Source of the DNA: Tachypleus tridentatus
Taxonomy: Eukaryota > Arthropoda > Merostomata > Xiphosura > Limulidae
DNA: 64,000 nt
NCBI RefSeq assembly: GCF_004210375.1
Contig: NC_134835.1
Span: 68,788,447-68,852,446 of the forward strand
Reading direction: 5' to 3'
The first letter of the stretch is position 1. Every line of letters starts with the position of its first letter. Shown piece by piece: positions 7,801 to 56,872 of the stretch. Both the position numbers and the translations under genes were made by a program. Under the pieces are notes generated by a model that was given only the letters and a program-made list of their open reading frames with translations, had not been told where the DNA came from and searched no databases.

Positions 7801-10217
7801 GGACAAGGCAGTTGAGGTTGCTCACTTTGCATGCTTTGTCAACCAAGGAGAATGTTGTTGTGCTGCATCACGTACTTATATACAAGAGGAAATCTATGAT
7901 GCATTTGTACAAAAGAGCAAAGAACGGGCAATGAGAAAGATAGTTGGTGATCCATTTGATGATAAGACTGAACAAGGTCCTCAGGTATTGCAAAAGTTTA
8001 ATTTGTACTTCTTACATCAAACGGAACTGACCCTAACTTGCAGAGGGAGAGAGTATCGTATAGTAAATTTTCTCTTTTCATAGTAATCTTAAATTGTTTC
8101 TCTGTAAATTGTTGTTTTGGAATTTGTTTAGTCTTTGAGTATTAAGTTTAAAACAATTTTAGGTATAACTTTTTATAATTGGTTTTGAAACTTGGATAAA
8201 TTGGCATACAAATTTTACTCGGTAAGTTTACTGTCTAAATGGTTGTTTTTTTAAGGTTGATAATGAGCAGTTTATAAAAATCTTGGACCTCATTGAATCT
8301 GGCAAAAAGGAAGGAGCAAAAGTAGAATGTGGTGGTGGGCGTCTTGGAGAAAAGGGGTATTTTATCCAGCCAACAGTATTTTCTTCAGTTACTGACAACA
8401 TGAAAATTGCTAAAGAGGAAATATTTGGACCTGTGCAACAGCTGATAAAATTTAAAACATTGGATGAGGTTATTGAAAGAGCTAATAATACTCATTATGG
8501 TTTAGCAGCTGGTATTTGCACTAATAATGTGGAAACTGCTTTGATGTATTCTCAAGGTGTCAGAGCTGGAACCATATGGTAAATATATTCCTAATAAGTA
8601 TACAACTTTTACACTGTCTTTATTTTGAAGAATGTAATTTCTACATTTTGTAACAAACATTTCTTCTGCTATGAACATTTCACCAAATAATGGCATGTAA
8701 ACTAAATGCAAATAACTTGATTGATAGAAATTAAGGCAAATTTTTAAACTTCTTAAAAGTACTACACTTAACTTACAAAATATTTTATTTTATTTGTAAC
8801 ATTTAAATTACAATCTTGACTTCCTTTCTATGCAATAGAAAGTATATACTAGTCAAATATCGGAGCTTTTAGTTGTCTTTACCTCCTGATATATTATACA
8901 CTTCAAATATAATATTTAATTCTTTTTGTATGTTTAACATAGTAAAATAAAATAGTTTGAACATATTTTGAATAAATTTATTTTTCAGGGTAAACTGTTA
9001 CTTAGCACTTAAGCCACAAACACCCTTTGGAGGATATAAAATGTCTGGTCAAGGTCGTGAATTGTAAGTTTATATGCTACATGTTTGTGTGTACATGTAT
9101 ACTTCAACCAAAGAATGTTGTATATTTAATCAAACATTTGATAGCTTGTACATAATATCAACAAGATTTTATATGAATCAAGAAAATATACCCCAGCATA
9201 ATTAATTTATATCTTGTTTCTCCTATTTTATTTTATTAAAAATTCTTAAGGATAACCAATTTATTTTCCATACATTTAATGTTGTTGTTTTTTTTTATAG
9301 TTTGTTAAATTTCTATTAAACACTGATTATTTATGTTTTCAACAGGTGTTTGTATGAATGTCTTTTATGTGAAGTTGTTTTCAGTACAAACAAGTTTTAT
9401 GAGTAATAGCATAAATTACTTTATTTTGTGACTTAATCAGTACTTAATTCCAAGTTTTATACTCTACAGTGGAGAAGATGCTCTTCATGAATACACAGAA
9501 ATTAAAACGGTAAGTAATGTATGTGCAAATACATGACCATATTTATTTTTAAATTAATGCAGGGCCTCCATCACAAACTTTTGAGGGGGAGGGGAACCTC
9601 TAACAGATAGCTGTTTATATGTTGTGTTGACGAGGTATGTTTCCCATTGTCTAAGCTCTTCACTTACTTGGATATAGTGCATAGTGGTGGAATACATGTG
9701 ATCTGTATTGGCAAACTATTTAATTATCATGTTGGTCTAATTATGGGTTTTTTAGTATAAGCTTCCCCCTCACTCCATGCACCTTCAATTTTCAAAAAGT
9801 ATAGGAAAGAAAACCATATCCTTTGTTAAAATCCATACTGTAATTCAACAGCTTGTTGGTGGATTTAGGTGCAAAAATTAGCAATGACCTCGAGCAAATA
9901 TCTTGTACTTTGGTGTAGACAGATTCTATCTGGACATTGAAGAATACAAGATAGCATAATGGTAAATGGCCTGTGGTCAGCCATGATTATAAGTGGTTAT
10001 AAATATACAGCCATTTTCAAAATAAATGATGATTGTATATTGGATGCTTCAGTAATTTTGGTTTAGTTATCAATGTTGAAGTTGTTAAAGTTTTTTCTTA
10101 ACTATACCTTGTTATATAACTTTCCTACTATGTGACTACTATTATCACTACTGATTGCTATTTTTTTTCTATTTCAAACTCCAGGTTACAATTCAACTTC
10201 CACAAAAGAACTCTTAA
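4821..10217 (+). CDS. ALDH1A1-like: Aldehyde dehydrogenase, class 1 cytosolic type (ALDH1/retinal dehydrogenase-like), 12 exons
   Basis: NAD-dependent oxidation of aldehydes to carboxylic acids. Exons: 4821-4871, 5171-5275, 5463-5603, 5966-6092, 6693-6754, 7030-7272, 7386-7488, 7800-7984, 8256-8578, 8989-9063, 9470-9509, 10185-10217. All introns are GT-AG and phases join into 495 codons, the usual family length (about 500). Key residues (numbered from the 4821 ATG): catalytic-site Asn164 (WNFPLL), NAD-contacting Lys187 and Glu190, FTGSTE at 238-243, general base Glu263 (LEMGG), nucleophile Cys297 (NQGECCCA) and Glu394 (EEIFGPV). The protein ends in QLPQKNS. It has no mitochondrial presequence, which favours ALDH1 over ALDH2. 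The ATG at 4842 has a better initiation context (gccATGa) and would give 488 residues. No frame damage was seen. Its last two exons recur at about 29 kb and 50.6 kb. Which aldehyde (retinal or other) it prefers cannot be read from sequence. Confidence 0.97.
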
Positions 10218-10369
10218 ATATTCATCTCCAGTTTCACATCCTTCAATATATGGATAATTTTTTTTTTTATACCTAACAAGATGTATTTTCAGTATGTTCC
10301 TATTCTACATATTGTGGTGCTTTGTTCATAACTAATAATTTGGAACTTGTTAAAATCCTATTTGTCTGC

Positions 10370-10375
10370 AATAAA
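10370..10375 (+). terminator. Candidate ALDH1 polyadenylation signal
   Basis: AATAAA about 150 bp after the ALDH1 stop codon. The same hexamer is preserved after the duplicated stop codons in the other two copies. Other AATAAA hexamers exist downstream in this AT-rich sequence, so the choice is positional. Confidence 0.45.
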
Positions 10376-13121
10376 TCATACTTTGTTTCTGTATATGAGA
10401 TACTTTGTAACTTCTTTCTTTCAGTTACAAGGGGGGGGAAGAACAAAAAAAATTGTACCATTTGAAAAAAACCCACAGCTGCAAACAAATACTACGTTAC
10501 AATTGTGTCCTAAACGAAAAGACAAATGCATACATACATAAAATCTAAAATTAATGAATATACAACTAAAAAAAACTATTGTGGGATATCTGTCTTTAGA
10601 TAAAGAATATACTAGAACTCATTTTGGATATAATGCATAACCAGGCTTTGTGAATAAATAATGAAAGAAAACTATTTTGTCATAGGTTTTGTTATATGTG
10701 TACGTGACATTATTTATGATTTAAAGAAGGAAGTTCAAAGGAGAAACGTTAGTTTTAGAAATATACTTTCTAATTATGGTATATGTATTTACAAACTGCC
10801 TCTTGTTTTAAAATACTCCTGTTTGTCTCTAACCACTCCTTGTGAAGTCCAAAATTTGCTAATATACCATATTTCCACTAGTTAATGCATAAAACAAGCA
10901 TAGGAAATTTGTTTTACAACAGCTAAAATCTTAAATTTGTTAAAGGTTTAATTTTCAAAAGAGGGGAAACCTTTTTTATTTGTTAATGTTTGTTTCATGG
11001 TTGAATTTAATTTTCTTGTCCTTAAAATTGACTGTCATTTAATATTAGGAAAGCTTTTTAAAAAACAAGAAACTCCCTATTCTTCCTTTTTAGATGTAAT
11101 CTGTTGTAATTACTTTCTAGCTTTTCTAAATACCTGATAAAAGCATTAAAGTTTTAAAGTATAAAAGTCGAATGGTTGCTTGAATCCTTCATGAGTATAA
11201 ACTTTTTAATCTTTATGCGGCTGAACTGCCACTTTCCTTTTGGCAAACGCAAACTAACGTGGCAGGGGTTTAATTTAGAGAGAGAGAAATCAGAAGAGTT
11301 CTCTCTCCAACTGGGGTGTTCAGGAACGTTGTGGTTCCTCTTTCCTTTTTGCGGGATTTGGACAACCTTTTATTCCTTATTAATCTCGGAGCAAGTTTTC
11401 TGACTTGTATAATAGACAAAGGGAGAGGAATTGACGACAAATATTGCACTCTTCGAAGAAAACGTATCCGTAAATGTACAATTTTAATTATTTAAATTAC
11501 GCCACATTTCGAAATAATAGTGACTTTAATTCCTAACAATTTAATATAGAATATCCTAATTGTGAAATAAAACTTTTTACCAGTATTACTCATGTCTGGC
11601 CTCCCGCCACATCAAAAGTTTTTCTTGTTTTTAGAATTTCGTGAAAAGCTACATGATGGCTAGCTGTCCTTAACTTAGCAATATAAAACCAGAGGGAAGA
11701 CCGTTAGTAATCGCTGCCAAAGCTTTATATGTAAAGTTGAGTAATAAAACATAACAATCGATACATGTAACATCAAAAAGCTTATTACAGTTTCATAAAT
11801 TAATTGATTAAAACGCACGAAACTTTATTTAAAGCAACATCTTAGTCATAGATGATTCGTAGGATTTCGTTAATTGGCGTATTATGGCACAAACAACTAG
11901 ACTATCTCCGCCGTTTTATACGAAAATGCAGCTTTCTACTTGTAAAATCTTATACGCGCTTAATGAGGGCTGTCTTTAATATAGGCATATGCTCATTGCT
12001 ATGTTTTATATATAGAGAATTTAGTTACACCGGAACTATATATATTCTCACTATATTCTCAGACAAACGTCAGTGACAATCTTCAGCTATAGCTCAACTA
12101 ATGAGATAAAATAGTCAATGGTTACAGTAGTTCATTATGAATTGTATCATCTAGCTACTAGATATGTTTACTATCATGACAATGTGTAAAGGTAGCCACC
12201 GTTTAAAATAATTCTTTGCTCATAGTTGAACATAAAAACAAAAACCAGGAAACAAGATGAATAAAAGGAAAAACATTGGAAGTTTAAAAAATTGCAAATA
12301 AGGCACGTAAAAAAAAAAAAAATGGAAACAACGTCGTAGATACTGCATACATTACTCAAACTACAAATCAATATTTTAACCCTTCTACCTAGTAGCACAG
12401 CGGCACGTCTGTAGACAGAGAATAGATAGCCCATTGTACTTAATTCCAGATAAGCAAAGAAATAACGTAACTTGCATCAGTGATATTGTGCCTAATCTCT
12501 CCAGTTTTTGAAATTCACTGTAATGGTGCTTTTAACTCCACTTATAAACCCCATTTTGACTTTATAATTTGAATAAATAATACCGATAGTAGCTCAAGCC
12601 TTTTTTTTTTTTTTTTTTTTACGATCCTTATTTCCAGGTTTTTAATTTCATCTTTCATTTATTCTGTTGTAAACATCTCAAGGAGACTGTGTATACCCAA
12701 GGTAAGAAATATTGAGACTAATAATAATAATAAAAAAACTACAAACATTTTGCTGAAATGTTAGTGCCATCTGTGATGTGTTCATAAAACTAATTATTAA
12801 GACACTTGTAAAATAAAGGTAATCTCAAAGTTTCAGCTACAACTGAAATTACAGACTATAACAGAATGTGGTTACTGAACGAATGACTTATACTCGAACA
12901 TTCATTCGAATATAGTGGGATAATATTAGAGTTAAAACCGTATTTAATGGCAAAATATAATGGGTATGACAGAATAATTTGAAAGTGAGAATTATTTTTC
13001 AAGTTGAAAAACAAGTAGAAATTATTTTTAATACAACATACAATGGGACAACCAAAGTTGTTGGTTGGTCTTATGTTTTGTGTAGGAAATGCAACATCGA
13101 TGTTCGAGATTGTAAAGATTT
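10376..13121. other. Unit A intergenic sequence, mostly unassigned
   Basis: 3' flank of ALDH1. It holds one diverged SINE tail (11613-11725). A 75-codon open frame at 11176-11403 is identical in all three copies but has no recognisable motif, so I do not call it a gene. The rest shows AT-rich sequence and short homopolymers (for example a T run near 12601). Confidence 0.5.
11613..11725 (-). repeat. Diverged SINE-1 tail
   Basis: Read on the minus strand, it matches the SINE-1 3' half: the tagtc/ttacactgctaa region, ggacagctagc, and gtagctttt before cgaaattc, with many substitutions. An older insertion than the other SINEs. The same relic is found at about 31535-31645 and 52997-53105. Confidence 0.65.
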
Positions 13122-13373
13122 AATTTGTTTTGAATTTCGCGCAAAGCTAAACAAGGGCTATTTGCGCTAGTCGTCCCTAATTTAGCAGTGTAAGACGAAA
13201 GAAAAGGCAGCTAGTTATCGCCACCCACCGCCAACACCTGGGCTACTCTTTTACCAACGAATAGTGGGATTGATCGTCACTTATACACCTCCACGGCTGG
13301 GAGGGCGAGCATGTTTAGCGCGAACCCTCAGATTACGAGTCGCACGCCTTACGGGCTTGGCCATTCCAAGCCT
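13122..13373 (-). repeat. Chimeric SINE-1 (recombination product)
   Basis: The left part and left flank match the SINE at 33071-33316 of unit B. From about agcagtgtaagac onward, the body and right flank (ccaagcctcaaagctatcag) match the SINE at 34297-34552. The 1.2 kb that lies between those two SINEs in B is absent here, so this is a hybrid made by recombination between two SINE copies. Confidence 0.85.
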
Positions 13374-16003
13374 CAAAGCTATCAGAGCAGTATTTTTTGT
13401 CGTATCATACGGTGGTGACACCTGAAAGTATGAGAAACTTAAAAACAACAACCTATCAAAAAAATCCACAACTGTTTTCAATATATATCTATTATATTGT
13501 GTCAAAGTAAATGTGCTAAAGTTTTAAATATAAATTAATGATAAATATTTTAACAACTATTTCAACAGTATAAAGAGCATTTTTTTTTTTTTTAAATTAT
13601 CTTGATGTGAAGAACATACTTTGTTCCAATGTTTCTGAAAATAACTCCGACAGATGCGACCGGTTTTCAAAGTGTCCTTTTCCTTTAGTTTCTTTACTAC
13701 GTTTTGCCACGAAAAATTCTGAAAAATACACCTTTTCTCGAACTGAAAAATGTATTCGCGTATTTCATTCTTACAAATATATCCAGATACGAACACACAC
13801 ACTTAATCTGGGTATTTTCCACAGTGTAGTGATAAAAACAGTTAACTATATTTCTCCATTGTTCTTTATTCCTCGCGCCAATTTTCCTAATTCAAGTTTT
13901 TAATTTCGTGATAACTTTTAATGACGTCGAGTAAAATCTCGTTGCTCTTTCTTTTACCCTTCACGTCAAAATCTACTGATCTGTTTTCACATCTATGTAC
14001 ATAAAGTAGTTCATTTCACGGTTCCCACGTATGTCCAGTAATTGTCGTTTTTGTTTGTTTCTTTTAAACATATGGGACTCAATACGTGGGTTTTCGCTGG
14101 AGTAATTGGACCATGCTTTGTTCCGATACATCAGCTGTCTTTTTACTTGTCAGGCAACGAGAAAGAATTTGATTTCCGATAATTGGTTCTAGACCTCTCA
14201 CTGTGTCTTTTGTCTACTTCTACCTGATGAAAAATGTTTCGCAAACACTGTAAAAACGTTTTCAAACTCTGTCATATCATCCTTTCTTTATTAAAAAAAA
14301 AACAACAACAAAGCAACAACAAAAGAAACTTCGCTGTAGTTAGTTTGAGAAATTGCGCGGGTAAAATCACGCACAGCAGTTGTTAATAGATGCCACCTGG
14401 CAATAAAAATAAGTGTTATCTGCTGTATTTCTTCCTCTGTTTCAATTTTCCTTCCCTTCAAATCGCCAAACTTGTGATACAGTAAAACGACTGAAACGCA
14501 GAAGATGCTTTCCAAGGGAGGTGCACAACTTAGTGTGAGGTCGCTGTTTTCGAGGAAAAAGTACCGCGGGAGAGTGAAAACAGCATGTGGAAGAGTGAGG
14601 CAAACGGTCGATGTAGAAGCAGCTACTGCTACAGCACCTAGACGACGTTAAGATTTATTTTTAGAAGATAGCTGGGTTGGAATAATGTGTTTTCTCGAAA
14701 CAAACGTTGGACTGAAAAATCGTGACTTTCCGGAAAATCCTCAGAACGAGCCGTTTTGTGGTAAACGAATATGAGCAGTGCTCATAGCAGTGCACCTGAG
14801 TCCAAAATAATGGCATGATTATGTAATAATATTTTGAGCTTTAAGTCCAAAGTTATGCCACGTTAATACATTACGATCGATTTCAAGCGTATTGTAATGT
14901 TCTTTGATCACCAATAAATAAGATTAACATGAATTATTTATTGTCAAAGCGAAGTAATGGTGTTTTAGTATAGTTTGTTTTTACAGGAAATGTACGATAA
15001 TTACAAAGATTACATTTCTGTCATGTTGGATAATCGTATTTTTATAACGATCTGTTTATTCACGATTGTCGTGAATCTACTACTAAACACAGTTTATCAA
15101 TAGACACGGTCTACTAAATAAGGCAAGAGTTCAGGTTTCCAAATTTTCAAGAATGTTAGGTTCATGTTTCACTTAATGTGTAACAGTGAGAAGTCAAATC
15201 AGCAAGGTTAAAATATTTGATAAGGAAGATAATTCAACCCCTACTTTCTAGCATGCTAATCATCGAGTGCAGCTTATCACTCATCGTGAAGATCATATTT
15301 ATACAACTAAAACCATCGAAACTTACAATGGGAAATTTATATTGCACAAGTGTATCATGTGATTCGTGGTTTTTGTCTGGTAATCATAATGATAACGAAG
15401 TACTTCTATGATAATTTTTTCAAGGTTACTTCTATAAAATAGGTTACGCTCTTAACTACACGCGAGTTGACGAGGTATACCATATATGGAAGTGTTTTCG
15501 TAAAACATCGATCAACTAATGTTGATTTATAGACATTTTTATTTCAAGAGAATATTAGCATTTATATACAATATCAGGAACTGCAGTTTCATTGAACACG
15601 TCTACGTTATGAACAGTATACAAGAACCTCGTCATGTGCACAATATAAAATAAAGAAAACTACAAGTATATATTTTTTTTAATTCGCGGCTTTTCTTGCT
15701 CATATATGACAGTCAAGAATCTTTATTTCTGAAAATAAATGTGTAACTCATTATATCATAAAAATCAAGCAAGTCTTATTTCCAGTGTTTATATATTGTT
15801 CTCTTTCCTTATTGAAACGTATATCAGTAAATTTCGCAATTCAAATCAATTATTTGAAAAATGTAATTAGACGAGCGAAATAGGGTAATTTGGTGTCAAG
15901 GCAATGTAAGTTTTGGTCCTTTGAAAAAAAGCTTAAATTTAAATTTCACTTTAAACCAAATATTTCCTAGAATGGTAATTGCAGCATCCAACATATAATA
16001 ATT
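13374..16003. other. Unit A intergenic sequence with a GC-richer patch
   Basis: No gene recognised. About 14480-14780 is less AT-rich than its surroundings (accgcgggagagtg, gacgacgtt) and is well preserved in unit B (about 35960-36235). It could be a former promoter or noncoding exon, but no open frame with recognisable homology spans it. The rest is AT-rich and featureless. Confidence 0.4.
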
Positions 16004-16281
16004 GGCCCAGCATAACCAGGTGGTTAAGGCACTCGACTCCTCATCTGAGGGTCGTGAGTTCGAATCCCCGTCACACCAAACATGCTCGTCCTTTCAGCCG
16101 TGGGGGCGTTATAACGTGACAGTCAATCCCACTATTCGTTGGTAAAAGAGCAGTGTAAGAGTTGGCGGTGGGTGGTGATGACTAGCTGCCTTTTCTTTAG
16201 TCTTACACTGCTAAATTAGGGACGACTAGCGCAGATAGTCCTAGAGTAGCTTGGCGCGAAATTATAAACAAACAAACAAAC
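16004..16281 (+). repeat. SINE-1
   Basis: A-box-like accaggtggttaaggcactc and B box gagttcgaatcccc, a complete body, and a tail of (aaac)n. It is slightly diverged in the head (ggcccagcataacc). Present at the same place in unit B (37470-37736), so inserted before the older duplication. Confidence 0.9.
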
Positions 16282-16911
16282 CAAAACACTACAGGAAATG
16301 AATAATTATCATTGTTGGCCTAACTGTACGTGATATTTTCGAAAACGAAATTGTTTTTTGTTTGTTTTTTTAGAACAAATATTGACTACAAATATATACT
16401 GTTTTGCTGCAGTTTAAGGGATTGTCGCAGTATTAAAACATTTGTATAAATTGGAGAATAAGCAATGTATTGTCGTGTATCGTGTTACATTGGGAGAAAG
16501 TATTCAATATGTTATTAAAAATATATTTTTATTGTGAAGAACTAGAAAGAGCTAACATTTGAGGTAGTCACTCGATGTCCCTTTAAAATAAAATGTTCAA
16601 ACTATGGTAAGCTGTATCCTTCAGTAACATTTTATACGTTAATAGTAATTTAATGAAATAAAATAAGTTTTAAGTTATTTCAGAACACATAATTTTAGGC
16701 AGCGAAGGAACAAAATATATAGTTTTTGTCAGGTGAATAAAATATCAAAATCCTAAATGACGTGTTACCATTTACAAGCTATTACAAATTTTGGTGGCTG
16801 ACCACGTCGTTACAGGCCATGTCGTCACGTTCGATCATACTAAATCTGAAGGTTGTGCTTCTTAACAATACTCCAGCAGCTAGGAAACGTTTTAAAATCT
16901 CGTTGTGTGTG

Positions 16912-16972
16912 AACTCAGCAGATAGCTTAATGTGGCTTTGCTATAAGAAAACACACACAATAGTGTGTGTGT
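16912..16972 (+). repeat. SINE-2-like tail with CA repeat
   Basis: gcagatagc..aatgtggctttgctataag matches the 3' end of SINE-2 and is followed by acacacac and a tgtgtgtg run. The head is not recognisable. Shared with unit B at 38373-38433. Confidence 0.6.
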
Positions 16973-17424
16973 GATTTGACTAGAATTTGCAGTTTCGGAA
17001 TGATAGTTAGCCCCGTCCTTATCTGTATGGTAGTTTCTATTTATAATCTATTCAAACCTTTTGAAAAATACAGAGGTGCAGGCTATTCAAAGAATAAATC
17101 TCAATTTTTAGTTTTTCTCACTATGTAATGAGATAAAACAGACACTAAGGCTTTTCATGCCTGTACTTTAAAAAAGACGTGCCTAAAGATTATTGCTTGA
17201 AAAATGCATAAATCTTTTTTTATTATTTTTATGTCGATTTATAAGTCTTATTTTTAAACACAAGCAGTAAGTCGTGTTCCCCAGGAAAACAGTTGTTATG
17301 AACAGCATATTAAACGTAACCAAAGGAGGCACCAGAGGCTATATGCCTGCATCTTTGACCTGGTAACGAAGTGCCCCTTGAGTGGGAAATTTAGACTTGA
17401 ATAAACTCATCATTGCTCTTTCAG

Positions 17425-17497
17425 TTTTGTTTGTTTCTTTACTTCAAGTTTAGCACAAAGCAACACAATGGGTTATATGTGCCACTAGGAGGCTTCG
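17425..17497 (-). repeat. SINE-3-like fragment
   Basis: On the minus strand it reads as a tail with acccattgtgttgctttgtgc, then a run similar to aaacaaacaaa. It resembles the SINE-2/SINE-1 tail design (gcagatagccc..gctttgtgc) but differs enough to be a separate subfamily. Unit B copy at 38885-38964. Confidence 0.5.
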
Positions 17498-17639
17498 GTT
17501 TTGAATTAAGTAGTCAAAGTTCACTTAGAAAGTAAAATGCTCCCCCTACAACTAAAATATCTTTTACCGTATACTTTTAAAATAAGTAAAACCGAAAATT
17601 AAAAAAAAACATTATTATGTAACTAATATTAAATTAATA

Positions 17640-17887
17640 AGGACTCGTAATCCAGGGTCGTCGCGGGTTCGAAACCCAATCGCACCAAACATGCTTGCCC
17701 TTTTCGCCGTGGGGCGTTATAACGTGACTGTCAATCTCACCATTCGTTGGTAAAAGAGTAGCTCGAGAGTAGGTGGTGGGTGGTGATGAGTAGCCGCCTT
17801 CCTTCTTGTCTTACACTGTTAAATTAGGGACGGCTAGCGCAGATAAGCCTCGTGTAGCTTTGCGCGAAATTCCAAAACAAATACACA
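17640..17887 (+). repeat. SINE-1, 5' truncated
   Basis: Starts within the tRNA-like head at ggactcgtaatcc and keeps the B box (gcgggttcgaaaccc), body and tail (gcgcgaaattccaaaacaaa). The A box is missing. Unit B copy at 39105-39350. A hairpin element begins directly after it. Confidence 0.85.
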
Positions 17888-17890
17888 ATA

Positions 17891-18069
17891 GGTATGTTTT
17901 ATTCTAATTGGTTTTAATTTTATTACTGAGTTGCATCACTTCCAAGAAAATCCTCCCTTATAATTTATCAAAAGTCTAAGTACGTACAGCACAGAAAAAT
18001 CAGGGAGAATTTTCTTGGAAGTAATGCTACTCAGTATTAAAATTAAAACAAATTAGAATAAAATATACC
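17891..18069. mobile_element. Hairpin MITE (TA-flanked), unit A copy
   Basis: Two ~68-bp inverted arms, starting ggtatgttttattctaat and ending attagaataaaatatacc, about 90% complementary, separated by about 40 bp. TA lies immediately outside each end, as for Tc1/mariner-type insertions. No coding capacity, so a non-autonomous foldback/MITE. The same element sits at 39357-39538 in unit B. Its ends do not match the TIRs of the nearby Tc1 element, so its mobilising transposase is not in this window. Confidence 0.75.
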
Positions 18070-18188
18070 TACACAGCATTCACTGGGTAAGCAAGTTTCT
18101 AAAATATGCGTAAAGGTCTAATATCATAGAACTGTTAATAACAAGACACATGACTGAATCATAATTTCATGTAATAATACTCAAATCG

Positions 18189-18460
18189 TTTGTTTGTTTT
18201 TGGAATTTCGCACAAAGCTACTCGAGGGCTATCTGTGCCGTCCCTAATTTAGCAATGTAAGACTAGAGGGAAGGCAGCTAGTCATTACCATCCACAGCCA
18301 ACTCTTGGGCTACTCTTGTACCAACGAATAGTGGGATTGACCGTCACATTATAACGTCCCCATGGCTGGGAGGGCGAGCATGTTTGGCGCGACTGGGATG
18401 CGAACCCGCGACCCTCGGATTACGAGTCGCACGCCTTAACGCGCTAGGCCATGCCGGGCC
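18189..18460 (-). repeat. SINE-1 with target-site duplication
   Basis: Complete minus-strand copy from the (tttg)n tail to the head (ccatgccgggcc). It is flanked by an 11-bp direct repeat, atactcaaatc, on both sides. Shared with unit B (39659-39930), so older than the A/B duplication. Confidence 0.92.
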
Positions 18461-19298
18461 ATACTCAAATCAGTGGGATGCAAATTGTTCTTGCTTTAAG
18501 TTTCCATTTATACCAGCAAGCCCGTATTAATTAAATTAGTTTGAGTCCCCTTGAATTGGGTACAAGCAAATTTGAAGTTAATTATAATTAATACACATGG
18601 AGAAACTTAGAAACATTTAGGCTAGATAAGGTTAAATTATGTGATACATATAATATAATTTTAATAATAATAATTGTTTTTCTACGAGGTTCACTCGCTT
18701 GGAGAAACAACTCAGGGGTAGCACAAGCTTTATGTAATTTGCTTAATGTAACATTTTCTTCACAGTACCGCATAATTCAACACTTCTTATTGTGGAAAGT
18801 TTAAAAGTCATGACCCAAGAGGCACTAAAACAATAAAATTTAATTACAAAGAGTTGTATAAGTTTAAACTATTTAGTGTAAATAAATGTTGTTTCCTGCA
18901 ATAATTAGATGTAACTACAGAAAGGGGAAAATGGTAATTTTGATTTATTTTGTATTTTTATAGTGGTGACGAGGTCGATCGAATTGATCTAGTCTGTATT
19001 GGGTAACAATAGAACAAATAACACATAAAACATGAAAAAACTGGTGGTCAGCATCGTCAGTAAGGGCTTTGGCGTAATAACGCCAGTTGGTGTGGCTCTG
19101 CATGCTGGAGGTTAGTTTTTATGATTAGTAAACCAAGTGATAACTTGAAATATTATTCCATTAGATACAAAAAAAAATGCAAACTTTAAGCTGAAACTTC
19201 GGAAATGCACAGAAAGTAGCATTTTTGGTCACATGATAGGTAAAGAAGGAATTTCCATGGATTCTGCTAAATTTTACCAATTGTAAAAGCTGAATTTA

Positions 19299-22126: not shown

Positions 22127-22138
22127 GTTTGTTTGTTT

Positions 22139-22403
22139 GTTGGAATTTCGCACAAAGCTACTCGAGGGCTATCTGTGCTAGCCGTCCCTAATTTAGCAGT
22201 TTAAGACTAGAGGGAAGGCAGCTAGTCATCACCACCCACCGCCAACTCTTGGGCTACTCTTTTACCAACGAATAGTGGGATTCACCGTCACATTATACAC
22301 CCCCACGGCTGGGAGGGCGAGCATGTTTAGCGCGACGCGGGTGCGAACCCGCGACCCTCGGATCACGAGTCGCACCCCTTATGCGCTTGGCCATGCCAGG
22401 CCC
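22139..22403 (-). repeat. SINE-1 insertion private to unit A
   Basis: Full-length minus-strand SINE-1 flanked by gttacaataggt on both sides (22127-22138 and 22404-22415). The matching place in unit B (about 43698-43709) has one copy of the target (ataacaataggt) and no SINE. A clean filled/empty site pair: inserted after the A/B duplication. Confidence 0.95.
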
Positions 22404-22858
22404 GTTACAATAGGTCTGTATTAAATCCAGAAATACAACCACAATTAGGGGCATACAAGTTACTAACTAAAGGAAGTTTACTATTAGAATAAATAATGTA
22501 CTCTGAGACGGAGGTTTTAATATTAAATAGATATTTTAGCTTAGAGCTTTCAAATACAAAATTCTGTTTCCTTATTAATCAACTATATTAGAATTCTTAT
22601 CAGGTTTTCTATGATTCTAAACATATTTTGATTCAACTGTTAGCAGCCAGTTAAACTGATATATTTCAACCTTTCTATTATTATACTTTTTTATACAAGC
22701 TTCTTAACTATGTTACTAGATTTGAGAGAAATAGCAATAGCAACTAACATCAAGGTTGGAATAGTGTTTTGGCTTCATTGCAAGCTTGAAAGTTTCGACG
22801 TCTTTTACAGACTTTAGCTAGAGAGAGATCTCTTCATTTTCCAGTAGGCTTTACGGAG

Positions 22859-22974
22859 GGCCCCCGCTGGTACAGCGGTATGTCTCCGGATTTACAACGC
22901 TAAAATCTGGGGTTCGATTCCCCTCGGTGGGCTGAGCAGATAGCCCTATGTGGCTTTGCTATAAGACAAAACAC
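22859..22974 (+). repeat. SINE-2 insertion private to unit A
   Basis: 116-bp tRNA-like SINE: ccccgctggtacagcggtat, B-box-like ggttcgattcccc, tggctttgctataag tail. It is flanked by the 11-bp repeat gctttacggag (22848-22858, 22975-22985). Unit B has the empty site (about 44140-44150). This is the best full copy of SINE-2 in the window. Confidence 0.93.
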
Positions 22975-45612: not shown

Positions 45613-46033
45613 TGATTTTGCTAGTTCTAACAAAAATTAACACTTTCACAACTACAATGTCTCTTCAAGAATCATCATTTCAGATACAAATCTGGCTAAC
45701 TGAAATACAAAAATAAACAAGAATATATTATTAAGGTAAACTCGTTGTAAATTAAAACCTGGTTTTTACTATAACTTAAAGAAGGTGTAATAGAAATAAC
45801 TTTACTTCAAAAATAAATCAAACTTACCACACACTATATAACACAGAAATTTTGTAAAATTTAAAATAAATCTTTTAGCAGAAATATGTAACACAATTAG
45901 AAGAACACTTCACTTTGATATACCTGAGTGGATGAAGGTATACGAGTTAGAATAAAGCAAATTATATTTGCATCATTAAAGGAAGTAGTCCAGTTTAATG
46001 TGAAACTAGAATCCATTAAAGTCATAGATAAAC

Positions 46034-46400
46034 AAATAAATTCATCCTCAAGGAATTATGCCTCCAAAAGAATAACAGGATATTTTTAGTGTGGAAAACA
46101 TGACAATTGCATTCAAAATTTTTTAGATACAGTTGTTGGTAATATGGAAAGAAGACAATATTCTTAAGATGAAAATTCTCTATCTATAAAAATACCAAAA
46201 TATCAAAATGAATTGTGTTTTATACAAATACCAGTCCAAAAGTCAATGGATTCATTGATGGGAAGTCTTACAGTAGTATGTTATTGAACACCGATTCTAC
46301 AGCTTTAGCTATTCGACCTGATCTCGTAACGAATGGTGGAAAATTGCCTCCTGAAAATGTATTAATAAAACGAATTGATGTGAAGAGCGTGTGGTCATAA
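46034..46400 (+). mobile_element. LTR-retrotransposon fossil (Gypsy-like), unit B
   Basis: Partner of 23640-24006, with the same knuckle-like and retropepsin-like stretches. Broken remnant, no LTRs seen. Confidence 0.4.
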
Positions 46401-46541
46401 AGCTCCTGCAACAGAAAACGCATCACCGATAATAGATATAACGAATATAGTGAGGTTGGAATAATATCATTATACACTTTAAATTCCCTAAGGAACTAAA
46501 TGAAGAATGTTTTGTTTTAAAATATAATGGGCCATTATATT

Positions 46542-47020
46542 TTATACTTAAACGGATGAAGATAGCACAGTGTCAACAGAAGAAGACTAATATTTTGTTG
46601 TTGTTTCTTAAGCATAAAACTAGAAATGGGCTTCTTTGCTTTGCACGCTGCAGGTTTGAAACACGATATTTAATATTATAAGCCCACAAACTTAATGTTG
46701 AATTACCGGGAGGTAGAGCAACTGCATTTATGACTGTAAACATGAACGTGTAGGTGAAAGTAAATTGCAGAGTACAATAATATGTCAACCACACTACAAC
46801 GTCTGTATCCATTGCCAACGACTCCTTTCACTTGAAGAAAAGACTATATAATTCTAGAATATTTATGTGTTTAAACATCATGCAGTAACAGACAAACAAC
46901 AGATTTATTGATGGTGAAACATACTGCATGTTTTGAGAGAACATTGGCCTGTCTTCAGGTAAAAGAAAGGCTGAAAGGAGATGTAAACGCATCCCCCCCC
47001 ACTTTATTTAGCTCACCATG
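46542..47020. other. Sequence between unit B and the recent copy, with a PLE-like tail
   Basis: Not related to the sequence after unit A. On the minus strand about 46865-46990 reads cctgaagacaggccaatg then ctctcaaaacatgcag and caataaatctgttg. This resembles the 3' ends of Penelope-like elements (a gaagac..gaaac pattern), but of another family than the PLE here. The remainder is unassigned; a C run (46993-47001) precedes the breakpoint. Confidence 0.4.
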
Positions 47021-47889
47021 GTATACTTAGAAGAAAATTAAAAAATACCAGAAATTCAAAACGGATATCGAAAATACTGCCAAACTTCAGACCACCTGAT
47101 TCGACTTACAGAATCAATTACTGACAGCTTTAACAAAAACGAATGCACTGTAGCTTGCTTTCTCGATATTGAGAAAGCTTTTGACACAGTGTGGCATAAT
47201 GGTTTGCGTCATAGATTGCATGAAATGGCTCTACCCCCAGGAAACTATTCGTTGGCTGTCCAACTTTCTGGAAAACCGAAAGTGCAAAGTAAATGTGAAT
47301 GGGGCCCACTCAGTGTCCTTTTCACCTGAAGCAGGAGTTCCGCAGGGAGGGGTTGTTAGCCCTATATTATTTATCATGTATGTGAGTAATATGCCTCTGT
47401 CCGACCTAAATTTAAGTTATGCATCACAGTTTGCTGACGATGTAGCAGTCTGGAAAAGTGCCCCACTCCTTCAATTGCAGCAACGAACCTACAACCAGTT
47501 CTAAATAACATCGAAGAATACTGCCAGAAATACAGAATTAAAATCAATATTCCGAAAACCCAAGTGATATTATTCAGCAGACTCAATAAGCTGAAAAAAG
47601 ATCCACCAAAGCTCAACATGAATGGATCACTTTTACTGACTGCTACTTCTGCTAAATTTCTAGGTCTAACCTATGATTCAAAATTAACGTGGTTACCGTA
47701 TATTAAAATATACTGAAACGAATCTGGAAAGAGCAAACTATGCAAGAAGTCTTTCAGGTAAAACCGAGGAACATCACCAGACAATATACTTAAAATCTAC
47801 AAAACGTACATTAGACCCATAATAGAATATGCATCACCTGCCTGGATTAACATAGCACCCACACATTTACAGAAACTTCAACGACAATC
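47021..47889 (+). mobile_element. Jockey-like LINE fragment, second copy
   Basis: Same as 25557-26427. It starts at the duplication breakpoint, so the upstream half seen in the first copy is missing. It shows extra homopolymer indels (for example taccccca for tacccca). Confidence 0.9.
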
Positions 47890-50444
47890 TATTTTATTCA
47901 ACAATGTAGAAAGGAACAAGTAACCCCTAATTTTGTAAAGGTAAAACTTTAAAAATTTTAATAAATACACAAACATTATCCAAAATTTACAGAAAACTAC
48001 TTAAAGCCATGTTGAACACACAATACAAAGAACTACATGACTTACAAAAACAAAAAATGAACCTAGACCATCAACTGGCATGCTGCATTAAACCAGAGAT
48101 TTACGGACTTATACAACGAAACATAAACCAAATCAATACTAAGAACAATAGAGACAAAAAGATCTGCCACAACAACAAGAAAACTAAAACTAAGATGCAA
48201 ACAACAGAAAAGACATCAACATGACAAACCGTTGACTAACCTCATAATTAACAGATCCGACCGACAATTAAACACAGACGAGATACATCTACTTAACAAA
48301 GGACTAAACTTCGCAATAGCACCTTGGTACATTCCAACCATAGAAATCAAAACATGTTTAGAAGATCTAGCCAGGAGACTTGTGATACTTTCTACAGAAA
48401 ACAACCAACAGAAAGAAGACAACTTAGATAATTTTGTTTTCATCCAACGGCCAAACTTCCCAGGTAAAATTAAAAATTTATATTTTCCAGAAACGCCTAA
48501 AAACATCTTAAACGATTTTTTCAAAATTTTCTCACAAAACCATCAACATAATTTCACAAAACAGAAAACTAAAAAACAATCTTACAAAAGAGACATTAAT
48601 TCCATTAAAAACCTAAAACAAGACAGAAACATAAATTCGAAAAGCAGCTAAAGGTAACGCTATAGTCATAATGAACACGAATGAATACATCCAAAAAATG
48701 AAAAACATCCTATCAGACACGAACAAATTTAAAGTAATGCACACAAATCCAACAAAGACACACGAGATGCAACTGAACAAATTACTACTACAAATGAAAA
48801 AAGCCAACACAATTTCACAAACACTTTATTCCTACCTACGTAAACACCGACTCACGCACACCACAAGTATACGGCATCCCCAAACCTCATAAACCAGATT
48901 GTCCATTACGACCAATAATGTCCACATATGAATCGTTTAATTACAATCTTGGTAAATACATAGCATGGGCATTCTCCAAATATGTAACATCAGCCAGCTC
49001 ATTCATCAAAGACTCTTTTAATTTCAAGTCTAATCTAAATCAACTTAATTATAAAGCCTTAATGGCCAGTTTCGATGTTATATCCCTCTTTACAGAAGTT
49101 CTAACCGTTGAAGCCTGCAAGATAGCCTTAGAACTCTATATCCGAGACCCTAACCCATCTATAGACATTCCCAGCAACCAATTAGCAACCCTCATAGAAT
49201 TCACCACGATAAAGACAAACTTCATGTTCAACAACCACAACTATATACAAACAAATGGCCTAAGCATGGGCAACCCAGTATCATCAGTTCTAGCCAATAT
49301 TTTTGACACAAGTTGAAACACAAGCAATTAACACAGCATTACATCCACCACTGTACTGGTACAGATATGTGGATGACACGGTTGCGGGATTCAGATCTAC
49401 AGAACACACACTTAATTTTTTCAATCACATTAACTCTAGACATCCCAACATTAACTTCACATGTGAACAGGAAGAAAGCAATCAAATATTATTTCTTAAC
49501 CTCAAATATAAGAACCGACACACAATTCAAAACAGAAATCCGCCGAAAAATCACCCATACTGGATTATACATTCCTTGGGACTCAGCACATGAAACAAAA
49601 CAAAAATTCAACATAATAAGAAACCAAATAAACAGCCATAAAACTATGCTCACCAGATAAAATTAACGATGAATTAGACAAAATAAAACAATACTTCATC
49701 AACATCAATAAGTTTCCTCCGCAAACCGTAGAAAACGTAAAATGCACACACCTAGACAGAAAGCAAAATCAACCAACAAAAGTAAATATATCTCACGAAT
49801 CAAAAAATCACGAAACCATATACTGCTGCATACCATATATTCCTGACATCAACAGACAAATAACCAACATTTGGCAAAAACTAGTAACAAAATATGACAT
49901 TCCAGTTAATACCAAATTTATTCAAAAGCCAGGCACAAAACTGAGGTCTATACTATGTAAAAACTACACTGACAAACACCACACCAACATTATTTATAAA
50001 ATACAATGTGATAACTGCCACGACTTCTATATTGAGAATCATGTAGAAAAATGGAAACCAAATTCAAAGAACACAAGTCACCTTCACACGTTTTCGAACA
50101 CAGCAAGTCAAATAACACAACATAACCATAGAAAACACTCAAATACTAAATAAACAAACGCAAAATTAAAGAAGCCTTATTTATACAACAACTTAAACCC
50201 AAAATAAACCAATATAAAGGAACGACTTTATACCTATATTTAATATAATAAAATAAAATTATATATTCAAACATCTAACACCGCTCTCTACATTCCGACA
50301 CTCGGTTACACAACCCCTTCAAACATGTGGTCAGCTTTCGGTCAGTTACCCCTTTCTTTGTGAACCTCACGATGACCGAAGGTCGAAACGTTGTATGCTC
50401 TTCTATGTAAAATATTTTCTCAACCCAAACGAGCCGTTTTTCAT
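47890..50444 (+). mobile_element. Penelope-like element, second copy
   Basis: Near-identical to 26428-28992, with the same RT (FDVISLF, YVDDT) and GIY-YIG-type stretches. Broken like the first copy. Confidence 0.9.
50368..50389 (+). ncRNA. Hammerhead-like core in PLE 3' end, second copy
   Basis: Identical to 28916-28937. Confidence 0.35.
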
Positions 50445-50594
50445 ATATACTGCTTGTATTTGTTTTTAACAGGTGTTTTTATGAATGTCTTATGTGAAGT
50501 TGTTTTCAGTACAAACAAGTTTTATGAGTAATAGCATAAATTACTTTATTTTGTGACTTAATCAGTACTTAATTCCAAGTTTTATACTCTACAG

Positions 50595-51481
50595 TGGAGA
50601 AGATGCTCTTCATGAATACACAGAAATTAAAACGGTAAGTAATGTATGTGCAAATACATGACCATATTTATTTTTAAATTAATGCAGGGCCTCCATCACA
50701 AACTTTTGAGGAGGAGGGGAACCTCTAACAGATAGCTGTTTATATGTTGTGTTGACGAGGTATGTTTCCCATTGTCTAAGCTCTTCACTTACTTGAATAT
50801 AGTGCATAGTAGTGGAATACATGTGATCTGTATTGGCAAACCACCTAATTATCATATTGGTCTAATTATGGGTGTGTTTTTCTTAATATAAGCTTCCCCC
50901 TCACTCCATGCACCTTCAATTTTCAAAAAGTATAGGAAAGAAAACCATATCCTTTGTTAAAATCCATACTGTAATTGAACAGCTTGTTGGTGGATTTAGG
51001 TGCAAGAATTAGCAATGACCTCGAGCAAACATCTTGTACTTTTGTGTAGACAGATTCTATCTGGACATTGAAGAATACAAGATAGCATAATGGGAAATGG
51101 TCTATGGTCAGCCATGATTATAAGTGGTTATAAATATACAGCCCAATTAACATATAAAAACAAAGGCCAGGAAAAAAGCCTTTATAATTGGGCTAATCTT
51201 GAATGCTGTCTTCAAGTGCTTACTCTACCTTTTTTAAGTATAGTAGATTAGTACAAATATAATCTCTAAGTAGATTACTCTAACAATTTTGAAAATAAAT
51301 AATTGTATATTGGATGCTTGGGCAATCTTGATTGATTTATCAATGTTGAAGTTGTTAAAGGTTTTTCTTAACTAACCTTGTTATTTAACTTTCCTACTAT
51401 GTGACTATTATCAGTACTGATTGCTATTTTTTCTATTTCAAACTCCAGGTTACAACGCAACTTCCACAAAAGAACTCTTAA
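50595..51481 (+). pseudogene. Duplicated ALDH1 exons 11 and 12, copy C
   Basis: Exon 11 copy at 50595-50634 and exon 12 copy at 51449-51481 (VTTQLPQKNS and TAA), identical in sequence and splice sites to copy B. Part of the recent 9.85-kb copy. No upstream ALDH exons nearby. Confidence 0.93.
51140..51194. repeat. Small hairpin, copy C
   Basis: Partner of the 29691 hairpin, with the same 10-bp outer stem. Confidence 0.55.
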
Positions 51482-52070
51482 ATATTCATCTCCAGTTTCA
51501 CATGCCTCAATCTGTGGATAATTTTTTTTTTATACCTAACAAGATGTATTTTCAGTATGTTCCTATCCTACATATTGTGGTGCTTTGTTCATAACTAATA
51601 ATTTGGAACTTGTTAAAATCCTATTTGTCTGCAATAAATCATACTTTGTTTCTGTATATGAGATACTTTGTAACTTCTTTCTTTCAGTTACAAGGGGGGG
51701 GAGAACAAAAAAAATTGTACCATTTGAAAAAAACCCACACAGCTGCAAACAAATACCACGTTACAATTGTGTCCTAAACGAAAAGACAAATGCATACATA
51801 CATAAAATCTAAAATTAATGAATATACAACTAAAAAACTATTGTGGGATATCTGTCTTTAGGTAAAGAATATGCTAGAACTCATTTTGGATATAATGCAT
51901 AACCAGGCTTTGTGAATAAATAATGAAAGAAAACTATTTTGTCATGGTTTTGTTATATGTGTACGTGACATTATTTATGATTTAAAGAAAGAAGTTCAAA
52001 GGAGAAACGTTAGTTTTAGAAATATACTTTCTAATTATGGTATATGTATTTACAAACTGCCTCTTGTTTT

Positions 52071-52308
52071 AAAATACTCCTGTTTTGTCAAATCTCTAAC
52101 CACTCCTTGAAGTCCAAAATTTGCTAATATACCATATTTCCACTAGTTAATGCATAAAACAGGCATAGGAAATTTGTTTTACAACAGCTAAAATACTCCT
52201 GTTTTGTCAAATCTCTAACCACTCCTTGAAGTCCAAAATTTGCTAATATACCATATTTCCACTAGTTAATGCATAAAACAAGCATAGGAAATTTGTTTTA
52301 CAACAGCT
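52071..52308 (+). repeat. 119-bp tandem duplication, copy C
   Basis: Both 119-bp units present (52071, 52190), as in unit B. Confidence 0.92.
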
Positions 52309-52996
52309 AAAATCTTAAATTTGTTAAAGGTTTAATTTTCAAAGAGGGAAACCTTTTTATTTGTTAATGTTTGTTTCATGGTTGAATTTAATTTTCTTGT
52401 CCTTAAAATTAACTGTCATTTAATATTAGGAAAGCTTTTTAAAAACAAGAAACTCCCTATTCTTCCTTTTTAGATGTAATCTGTTGTAATTACTTTCTAG
52501 CTTTTCTAAATACCTGATAAAGCATTAAAGTTTTAAAGTATAAAAGTCGAATGGTTGCTTGAATCCTTCATGAGTATAAACTTTTTAATCTTTATGCGGC
52601 TGAACTGCCACTTTCCTTTTGGCAAACGCAAACTAACGTGGCAGGGGTTTAATTTAGAGAGAGAGAAATCAGAAGAGTTCTCTCTCCAACTGGGGTGTTC
52701 AGGAACGTTGTGGTTCCTCTTTCCTTTTTGCGGGATTTGGACAACCTTTTATTCCTTATTAATCTCGGAGCAAGTTTTCTGACTTGTATAATAGACAAAG
52801 GAGAGGAATTGACGACAAATATTGCACTCTTCGAAGAAAACGTATCCGTAAATGTACAATTTTAATTATTTAAATTACGCCACATTTCGAAATAATAGTG
52901 ACTTTAATTCCTAACAATTTAATATAGAATATCCTAATTGTGAAATAAAACTTCTTTTACCAGTATTACTCATGTCTGGCCTCCCGCCACATCAAA

Positions 52997-53105
52997 AGTT
53001 TTTCTTGTTTTTAGAATTTCGTGAAAAGCTACATGATGGCTAGCTGTCCTTAACTTAGCAATATAAAACCAGAGGGAAGACCGTTAGTAATCGCTGCCAA
53101 AGCTT
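52997..53105 (-). repeat. Diverged SINE-1 tail, copy C
   Basis: Partner of 11613 and 31535. Confidence 0.6.
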
Positions 53106-54524
53106 TATATGTAAAGTTGAGTAATAAAACATAACAATCGATACATGTAACATCAAAAAGCTTATTACAGTTTCATAAATTAATTGATTAAAACGCACGA
53201 AACTTTATTTAAAGCAACATCTTAGTCATAGATGATTCGTAGGATTTCGTTAATTGGCGTATTATGGCACAAACAACTAGACTATCTGCACCATTTTATA
53301 CGAAAACGCAGCTTTTCTACTTGTAAAATCTTATACGCGCTTAATGAGGGCTGTCTTTAATATAGGCATATGCTCATTGCTATGTTTTATATATAGAGAA
53401 TTTAGTTACACCGGAACTATATATATTCTCACTATATTCTCAGACAAACGTCAGTAACAATCTTCAGCTATAGCTCAACTAATGAGATAAAATAGTCAAT
53501 GGTTACAGTAGTTCATTATGAATTGTATCATCTAGCTACTAGATATGTTTACTATCATGACAATGTGTAAAGGTAGCTACCGTAGAAAATAATTCTTTGC
53601 TCATAGTTGAGCATAAAACAAAACCAGGAAACAAGATGAATAAAAAGAAAACGTTGGAAGTTTAAAAAATTGCAAATAGGGCACGTAAAAAAAAAAGGAA
53701 ACAACGTCGTAGATACTGCATACATTACTCAAACTACAAATCAATATTTTGACCCTTCTACCTAGTAGCACAGCAGCATGTCTGTAGGCAGAGAATAGAT
53801 AGCCCATTGTACTTAATTCCAGATAAGCAAAGAAATAACGTAACTTACATCAGTGATATTGTTTCTAACCTCTCCAGTTTTTGAAATTCACTGTAATGGT
53901 GCTTTTAGCTCCACTTATTATAATTCTAGGTCACAGCATGAAGTCAAAATGGGGGTTTATAATTTGAATAAATAACACCTATAGTATCTCTAGCCTTTTT
54001 TTACGATCCTTATTTGCAAGTTTTTAATTCCACTTTTTTATTTACCCTGTTGTAAACATCTCAAGCAGAATGTGTATACCACAGGTAAAAAATATTATTT
54101 AAGACCGTAATAATGTTATTAAAACTTTACAAACATTTTACTGAAATGTTAGTGCCATCTGTGATGTGTTCATAAAACTAAGTGTCAAGGCATTTGTAAA
54201 ATAAAGGTAATCTGAAAGTTTCAGCTACAACTGAAATTAGACTATAACAGAATGTGGTTACTGAACGAATGACTTATACTCGAACATTCATTCGAATATA
54301 GTGGGATAATATTAGAGTTAAAACCGTATTTAATGGCAAAATATAATTGGTATGACAGAATAATTGGAAAGTGAGAATTATTTTCAAGTTGAAGAACATG
54401 TGAATGAAAATGCACCAAAGTAGAAATTATTTTAATACAACATACAATGGGACGACCAAAGTTGTTGGTTGGTTTTATGTTTTTGTGTAGGAAATACAAC
54501 ATCGATGTTCGAGATTGTAAAGAT

Positions 54525-54770
54525 TTAGTTTTGAATTTCGCGCAAAGCTAAACGAGGGCTATCTGCGCTAGCCGTCCCTAATTTAGCAGTGTAAGACTAA
54601 GAAGGTAGCTAGTTGTCGCCACCCACCACCAATTCTTGGGCTACTCTTTTACCAACGAATAGTGGGATTGACTGTCACATTATAATGCCCCCACAGCTGA
54701 AAGGACAAACATGTTTGTGACGGAAATTCGAACCCGCGACCCTCGAATTTCGAGTCGAGCGCCGGGCCCG
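54525..54770 (-). repeat. SINE-1, copy C left partner
   Basis: Partner of 33071-33316, with gattgtaaa on both sides. Confidence 0.88.
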
Positions 54771-55746
54771 ATTGTAAATAAGTTTAACTTCCCAAATTAA
54801 GTATATAGTATATCAATTATTTTTATTGTTTTTTAAAAGTTTTGCTTGATGATTCGTCTGACTCTCATAGGTGTATTTTAAAGAACATTATTTTCAACAC
54901 TTGTCACAAATTAAATTGAGATGTTATGGTTTGTATATATAATTTGTTTAATGAGTAACTTTTAATTATATAAATTAATTTAAAATAGCACTTTCAAGAT
55001 AGTTTTAGTTTACATTATTATCCTATAATTTGTAAGCTTTATTAAGCAATAAAAAAATTTTAAAATAAAGTTGCTAAAAGTTATTCCAACAAGACTATGG
55101 GATGTGGCAGCTTTTACCTAGAGTGAAATAATTTAGAAGACTAAATACAAGTGAACCAGACTGGTAAAATCTGATGGTACACTAGAACACTGAAAAAGAA
55201 CCCTTCCTCTCCCCTTCGGTGGCTCCGGGTTTCGATATTTGCGTGTGAAGAGCACAGATAACCCATTGTGTTTGTTTTTAACAAACTAGAAACTAATTGC
55301 AAATCTGATGTTCTGAAATACTATAATATGTATATTTATTACGTAGACAACGAAGTTTGTTTTATTTTGACTCATAATTATTCTCAACCCTTATCACCCC
55401 CCACACACACACACACAAGTGGAACAACTTCCTTGAAGCTTCTCTGAACGTTTATTTAAAATTTAAAAAGTAATCGTGAACAAATAATCTCTCTAAAACT
55501 GTTTTTTTTTGGCAGGGGCACGCGTGTTTGCATAACTATTACTTAATGTAAGTAACACCAGGAAGGACACACAAAAGTTCAAACAAAATGTTCGCTGCTT
55601 TTGTAAATACGAGTAATAGATGAAGGTCACGCTATAAGCCAACCATTTTGGTTACAACGGTGACAAGTAAGGAAACTGTCAATACTCCAGAACAAATAAT
55701 AGAGAAATAAGATCCAGATCTTAGTAACGAGATCTACAGTTTGAAG

Positions 55747-56001
55747 TTTGTTTGTTTTGGAATTTCGCCCAAAGCTACTCGAGGGCTATCTGTGCTAGCC
55801 GTCCGTAATTTAGCAGTGTAAGACTAGAGGGAAGGCAGCTAGTTATCGCCACCCACCGCCAACACTTGGGCTACTCTTTTACCAACGAATAGTGGGATTG
55901 ATCGTCACATTATACACCTCCACGGCTGGGAGGGCGAGCATGTTTAGCGCGAACCCTCAGATTACGAGTCGCACGCCTTACGCGCTTGGCCATGCCAAGC
56001 C
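55747..56001 (-). repeat. SINE-1, copy C right partner
   Basis: Partner of 34297-34552. Confidence 0.88.
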
Positions 56002-56617
56002 TCAAAGCTATCAGAGCAGTATTTTTTGTCGTATCATACGGTGGTGACACCTGAAAGTATGAGAAACTTAAAAACAACAACCTATCGAAAAAATCCACAA
56101 CTGTTTTATTTTGTTTTTCAATATATATCTATTATATTGTGTCAAAGTAAATGTGCTAAAGTTTTAAATATAAATTAATGATAAATATTTTAACAATTAT
56201 TTCAACAGTATAAAGAGCATTTTTTTAAATAATTATCTTGATGTGAAGAACATACTTTGTTCCAATGTTTCTGAAAATAACTCGCAGACAGATGCGACCG
56301 GTTTTCAAAGTGTCCTTTTCCCTTAGTTTCTTTACTACGTTTTGCCACGAAAAATTCTGAAAAATACACCTTTTCTCGAACTGAAAATGTATTCGCGTAT
56401 TTCATTCTTACAAATATATCCAGATACGAACACACATACACTTAATCTGGGTATGTTCCACAGTGCAGTGATAAAAGCAGTTAACTATATTTCTCCATTG
56501 TTCTTTATTCCTCGCGCCAACTTTCCTAATTCAAGTTTTTAATTTCATGATAACTTTTAATGACGTCGAGTAAAATCTCGTTGCTCTTTCTTTTACCCTT
56601 CACGTCAGAATCTACTG

Positions 56618-56872
56618 GGCCTGGCATGGCCAAGCGCGTAAGGCGTGCGACTCGTAATCCGAGGGTCGCGGGTTCGCGCCCGCGTCGCGCTAAAACATGC
56701 TCGCCCTCCCAGCCGTGGGGCGTATAATGTGACGGTCAATCCCACTATTCGTTGGTAAAAGAGTAGCCCAGGAGTTGGCGGTGGGTGGTGATGACAAGCT
56801 GCCTTCCCTCTAGTCTTACACTGCTAAATTAGGGACGGCTAGCACAGATAGCCCTCGAGTAGCTTTGTGCGA
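56618..56872 (+). repeat. SINE-1 truncated at the duplication breakpoint
   Basis: Partner of 35172-35445 but missing the last ~19 bp; after gtgcga the sequence changes to unrelated taaaacctttt. The expected right-hand target duplication agaatctactg is absent, which shows the truncation is a breakpoint and not an insertion end. Confidence 0.92.

Follow-up and report, generated by a model that had tools for sequence, protein, structure and literature searches.

The collinear segments A and B belong to a tandem segmental duplication of three units that spans an aldehyde dehydrogenase (ALDH-like) gene of Tachypleus tridentatus. In line with this species, the genome gives matches to the coagulogen family, for which 14 control genomes (all prokaryotes) have none, and two exon stretches agree with the coagulogen chain 1aoc of T. 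tridentatus over 42 and 51 residues, except for one and three residues at the exon edge. Positions refer to the window, i.e., the whole stretch of 64,000 nucleotides that was analyzed; zero and negative positions lie upstream of it and positions above 64000 downstream, as the array has been traced by adding 50 kb upstream and 110 kb downstream. We give an even chance to the reading that this array carries a recent, real 9.85-kb copy (block X and the first part of unit 2), which replaced a segment G in unit 3. This real rearrangement is ranked slightly above the explanation that the array is real and the copy a false duplicate of the assembly, which we hold to be quite possible, if under an even chance; either would be an event of an ordinary kind.

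The full unit has the order T-G-H-M, in which H and the beginning of M bear the ALDH-like gene. Unit 1, T-G-H-M(A), is the most complete of the three. Unit 2, T-X-M(B), is without G and H, including nearly the whole ALDH gene, and has X there instead, and unit 3, T-[B2]-H-M(D), is without G and has B2 in its place. The features are as follows.

7021..9509, + strand: 3' exons of the unit 1 ALDH-like gene (Pfam PF00171), at ~7021-7278, 7790-8000, 8256-8579, 8990-9070 and 9470-9509
9322..24150, + strand: A, segment M of unit 1 (BLAST and blockwise divergence against B), with the ALDH 3' exon at 9470-9509 and the first 620 bp of T at 23529-24150
24151..28995, + strand: X, read from the junctions as a SINE fragment (by eye), a LINE (RVT_1) and an element named Penelope-like, standing where G and H of unit 2 are expected
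25557..35426, + strand: B1, the source of the recent copy (part of X and the start of B); the LINE and the SINE run on beyond its ends
28996..47020, + strand: B, segment M of unit 2 and then T (45923-47020), with an orphan ALDH 3' exon at 29142-29181
47021..47022, + strand: left junction, T to B2, with 2-bp microhomology GT
47021..56872, + strand: B2, the near-identical copy standing where unit 1 has G (BLAST, junction alignment)
56871..56872, + strand: right junction, B2 to H, with 2-bp microhomology GA, within the SINE of B2
56873..64000, + strand, and on to ~83996 beyond the window: start of H of unit 3, with the second ALDH-like gene inside

The original prediction had rejected a simple three-unit tandem array, which turns out to be the actual framework: T stands at three places (-24571, 23529, with 620 bp only, and 45923) and H at two (-19628 and 56871). 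The T at the end of B (45923-47022) recurs at -24571..-23338, where 45923-46831 matches -24571..-23661 and 46832-47022 matches -23527..-23338, with a partial recurrence at the end of A (23529-24150); ~130 bases in the T of unit 1 are absent from the T of unit 3. Units 1 and 3 (I/III) are collinear, as -19628 to ~18187 recurs at 56871 to ~98186 with an identity of 87-98% in blocks of at least 500 bases (a single exception at 80%); some I/III blocks in M lie at 80-90% identity, and the I/III head shows 3.4% substitutions over 24,865 aligned bases. Both the I/III head and A/B are adjacent, collinear, direct copies of more than 1 kb and more than 90% identity, as expected of a tandem segmental duplication, and their content is not confined to transposons, since it comprises unique H sequence and the ALDH exons of units 1 and 3. 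Strong matches of the first 3,000 bases of H (56873-59872) have been found only to itself and to unit 1, with all 13 candidates scored, and the other 11 matches extend over at most ~206 bases at 69-82% identity; the long matches of T are confined to this array among the 40 of 112 candidates scored. Neither a second T-G-H place nor an extra T or H has been detected among the candidates scored in the genome. From G (3,709 bases in unit 1), 2,401 bases have been searched and give a close match in unit 1 only, among 40 of 3,401 candidates scored; the main matches of the other 39 have 68-90% identity over at most ~1.1 kb, as dispersed repeats would. The 224 kb examined around the locus contain 0 N bases, and thus no scaffold gap lies at the joins of B2. 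Elsewhere in the array region, a 3-kb element is common to -15190..-12142, 60811-63445 and 156246-159199, the third place being ~95 kb further on at 84-86% identity.

Regarding the older duplication, A (9341-24149) and B (29015-46541) had been described as collinear and a few percent apart, and this description stands: self-BLAST yields several collinear blocks of 9322-24150 against 28996-46544, with 305 substitutions in 12,892 aligned bases (2.37%, 8 non-overlapping blocks) or 359 in 14,200 by a second set of 9 blocks of at least 400, and the first set further contains 55 indels, 25 of them homopolymer lengths. The uniform divergence that had been predicted for windows of A/B has not been observed, as 1-kb bins span 0.4-4.9% (0.6-11.7% for I/III) and the variance of divergence exceeds the Poisson expectation 7.4-fold in A/B and 7.6-fold in the I/III head. 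The longest substitution-free runs, 944 bases in A/B and 687 in the I/III head, have not been reached in 2,000 shuffles, in which the A/B run averages 264 bases. We infer patchy gene conversion from this unevenness, although exon constraint may account for part of it in I/III; such patchiness is expected from repeated exchange within an array and has accordingly been counted in favor of a rearranging array. A unit of 119 bp, the only one used among the 10 rows of a tandem repeat scan of the window, is doubled in tandem (99%) in B1 (30607-30850) and B2 (52070-52313), and A appears to hold it once, because 10809-10929 of A serves two BLAST blocks. Scans of the window for tRNA and Rfam families have given no match. 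Part of the B-specific insert (44247-45925) has an inverted copy 58 kb away at 102463-104525 (minus strand), and its stretch 44247-44996 is 98.9% identical to this copy, closer than A is to B.

ALDH family matches are located at 7.0-8.6 kb of the window (unit 1) and at contig positions 68870135-68871694 (unit 3), among the 14 matches listed for 12 of 112 candidates scored, and the main ALDH exons are present in only two of the three units. The five exon stretches differ between units 1 and 3 by 8 bases with 0 gaps, and stop codons at two of their edges are read as probable intron. A 40-bp ALDH 3' exon with its GTAAGT donor is identical in A, B1, B2 and D (9470-9509, 29142-29181, 50595-50634 and 84145-84184). 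B and B2 therefore carry orphan ALDH exons, this being the single ALDH exon recognized in unit 2. Two scans disagree on the exons of unit 3, one giving an open frame of 532 aa and the other none of at least 150 aa in that 10-kb piece, and the frame has been left unused.

Within X, RVT_1 has been assigned by Pfam at 25578-26036 and, weakly, at 25071-25574. The putative Penelope-like element at 26.4-29.0 kb, so named in the original prediction as well, has no Pfam match, and a PDB search has returned hits at chance level only; parts of 26420-28990 recur at 90-95% in 38 other genomic copies, among 40 scored.

The pair B1 and B2 is far younger than A/B. As a single self-BLAST alignment of 9,885 columns at 99.4%, it contains 10 substitutions in 9,837 aligned bases (0.10%) and 43 differences in total, of which 33 are indels and 27 of these homopolymer lengths; for scale, the heterozygosity reported for Carcinoscorpius is 0.8% (PMC7210998). 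The near-zero divergence expected between 25557-35426 and 47021-56872 has thus been confirmed, and the proposal of two duplications of different age is supported. In base-level alignments with 200 bases on either side, the identity ends abruptly at both ends, the left one inside the LINE reverse-transcriptase frame (RVT_1, 25578-26036) and the right one inside a SINE at ~35171-35446, in agreement with the predicted ends of the copy in a LINE (47021) and a SINE (56872). The predicted direction of copying, from 25557-35426 to 47021-56872, is likewise supported, because LINE and SINE are continuous past the ends of B1 and cut in B2. That collinearity should stop at 47021 and 56872 holds for B1 and B2 themselves, but homology continues there with a third place, outside the window.

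This third place is the corresponding junction of unit 1. In a single-base alignment, the flanks of B2 (T on the left, H on the right) agree with unit 1 as far as the two junctions, the match from 56871 onward being to -19628 onward, and between the same flanks unit 1 contains the 3,709 bp of G and unit 3 contains B2. The copy has thus not simply been placed downstream, as had been assumed: since B2 occupies the exact place of an unrelated 3.7-kb segment, the geometry present in the assembly looks like a replacement of G, not a plain insertion. Presumably unit 3 lost G, and unit 1 did not gain it, with one G-bearing copy known here. G itself seemingly begins with a SINE, as -23261..-23158 matches 56736-56839 at 79%. 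The joined parts have only 2 bp in common at each junction, a length that a simple estimate expects by chance in ~18% of junctions. A nearby identical template (11.6 kb upstream, end to start) and microhomology at the junctions (GT and GA), by which templated insertions are recognized, are both present, although 2 bp is weak. A retrotransposed copy has been rejected, as no target-site duplication is seen by eye at the junctions of B2 and both of its ends lie inside elements.

The inferred mechanism, provided that the patch exists in the animal, is as follows. Array units may have misaligned, followed by microhomology joining with 2 bp at each junction. By one route, a 21.5-kb tandem duplication (25557-47020) would have been followed by a 15.3-kb deletion; by the other, 9.87 kb would have been copied in a single replication template switch that rejoined on the far side of G. 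The two junctions come out the same by either route, and both fit equally well. A pairing of the T of unit 3 with that of unit 2 would set the start of the template 1.4 kb beyond the paired T, a possible reason for the choice of this template.

The differences between B1 and B2 have an unusual composition, with 27 homopolymer changes against 10 substitutions, compared with 25 against 305 for A/B (Fisher p 1e-18), and homopolymer changes per substitution are 33 times as frequent as in A/B and 135 times as frequent as in the I/III head. For polarizing, the outgroups were A, D, L054 (another copy of the 26.4-29.0 kb element) and six copies of the LINE, and the differences have been sorted by hand into 32 length events and 11 substitutions (33 and 10 in the BLAST alignment). 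Of the 27 length events assigned (5 were left unassigned, and most of 26.4-29.0 kb has been polarized with L054 alone), 22 fall to B2 and 5 to B1 (p 0.0015), where those at 33597 and 34771 among the B2 events are uncertain, since B1 also departs from an outgroup there. The polarized substitutions are roughly balanced, with 7 on B2 vs 4 on B1 (p 0.55). Relative to A, 8 of 9 homopolymer changes in B2 are losses of length, as are 3 of 5 in B1; relative to L054, the figures are 7 of 7 for B2 and 4 of 7 for B1. D, on the other hand, shows no difference (B1 shorter in 8 of 12, B2 in 7 of 11), which speaks against a bias to B2; the B2 excess consequently derives from the comparisons with A, L054 and the LINE copies. 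Single A/T losses in B2 comprise 17 A and 2 T, with A runs constituting 145 of the 251 A or T runs of at least 4 (p 0.004, in a test picked after the list had been seen). In the flanks of B2, compared with their paralog, homopolymer changes that are shorter in B number 0 in 1.4 kb on the left and 1 in 3.9 kb on the right, where 3.0 and 8.4 are expected at the B2 rate (P 0.05 and 0.002), and the excess is thus absent from the flanks. Homopolymer indels of A/B amount to 9 in 3,497 bases at <1% divergence vs 3 in 3,673 at >3% (p 0.09, not significant alone), and in I/III the order is reversed, with 1 in 3,998 (<1%) and 10 in 12,739 (>3%).

The B1/B2 differences look largely technical, as the pattern of length changes fits near-identical sequence that has remained unpolished and is not expected from mutation. 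Given that the length changes fall mainly on B2 and the losses mainly on A runs, B2 may be supported by few reads of the same strand. A false duplicate could have resulted, for example, from joining a contig that ended at 47020 to an alternative-haplotype contig that starts at 25557 and in which 35426 is connected to H by a 15.3-kb deletion. Dispersed repeats (LINE, SINE), where assemblers err most, contain or adjoin every break, and this location of all four ends in or near repeats counts against a real copy and for an artifact, as do the skewed composition, the bias of the length changes to B2 and to A runs, and the lack of this excess in the flanks. The T. tridentatus assembly CNA0000821 (Gong 2019), with 2,167,470,406 bases, 204 scaffolds and 34,966 genes (PMC7815833), matches the present genome nearly, not exactly; it was made with Nanopore reads and has been reported as redundant and misassembled, with 4,855 of 34,966 proteins duplicated at identities of at least 98% over at least 70% (PMC7210998), and other genomes are known to contain false duplicates within one scaffold (PMC9516828). 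The original claim of a real genomic copying event is, in view of these technical differences and the reported redundancy, unproven. Gaps between copies are, however, among the hallmarks listed for false duplications (PMC9516828), and neither join has one; the absence of a second T-G-H place or of an extra T or H among the candidates scored and the near equality of B1 and B2 relative to D also disfavor an artifact. Moreover, real near-identical repeats keep homopolymer errors too, since short-read polishing is unreliable there, as found in a bacterial study (PMC8812927). A graph error induced by repeats is expected at shared sequence, whereas the joined parts share only 2 bp, which argues for a real join, and the balance of the polarized substitutions is that of two real loci.

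Other histories are less probable. The clean 9.87-kb insertion at 47020, without loss, that had originally been proposed to follow the old A/B duplication agrees with the direction and relative age of the copies, but unit 1 has G between the same flanks and A/B belong to a larger array; it could stand only with a gain of G in unit 1 instead of a loss in unit 3, and we consider it improbable. Overwriting of an old X + M copy of unit 3 by gene conversion from B1 would suit the patchy divergence of A/B and I/III with their long substitution-free runs, but needs older homologous flanks, and the flanks at 47020 and 56872 correspond to T and H of unit 1, not to the flanks of B1; such an event is very improbable, and simple gene conversion of B2 has been rejected since the flanks of B1 and B2 are not homologous to each other. 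Scarcely credible is a single, very recent replication template switch between misaligned tandem units by which 9.87 kb were copied and 3.7 kb replaced, with strand-biased homopolymer deletions of one base left along the whole copied strand. Frameshift rates of break-induced replication seem to be far below the ~2 per kb seen here, and this replication is very improbable as the source of the homopolymer changes. Frameshifts of this kind do have support in the literature (PMC3039667). If true, the trail of strand-biased deletions would record error-prone break-induced replication as it occurs naturally in the germline of an animal.

A damaged tandem array can pass for two unrelated duplications within one window, and homopolymer spectra flag assembly duplicates for checking before gene-family counts are trusted. 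Should the preferred reading of a real patch apply, it provides a well-bounded case in which a nearby template supplied the replacement, and both unit 2 and the patch hold an orphan ALDH exon. Known templated insertions are short compared with 9.85 kb. The nearby template, the direct copy, the 2-bp microhomology at both ends and the apparent loss of the target resemble templated insertions by MMBIR (PMC8421209), although the 2-bp microhomology is not significant here and the two-step route fits equally. False assembly duplications (PMC9516828) are similar in their near-identical copies on one scaffold, their apparent sequencing-type errors and the reported redundancy, but here no gap separates B1 from B2 and the joined parts share 2 bp per junction. 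The array as a whole is like the tandem segmental duplications and gene clusters of horseshoe crabs in carrying gene copies on direct repeats that are tens of kb long, and unlike them in that the main ALDH exons occur in only two of the three units.
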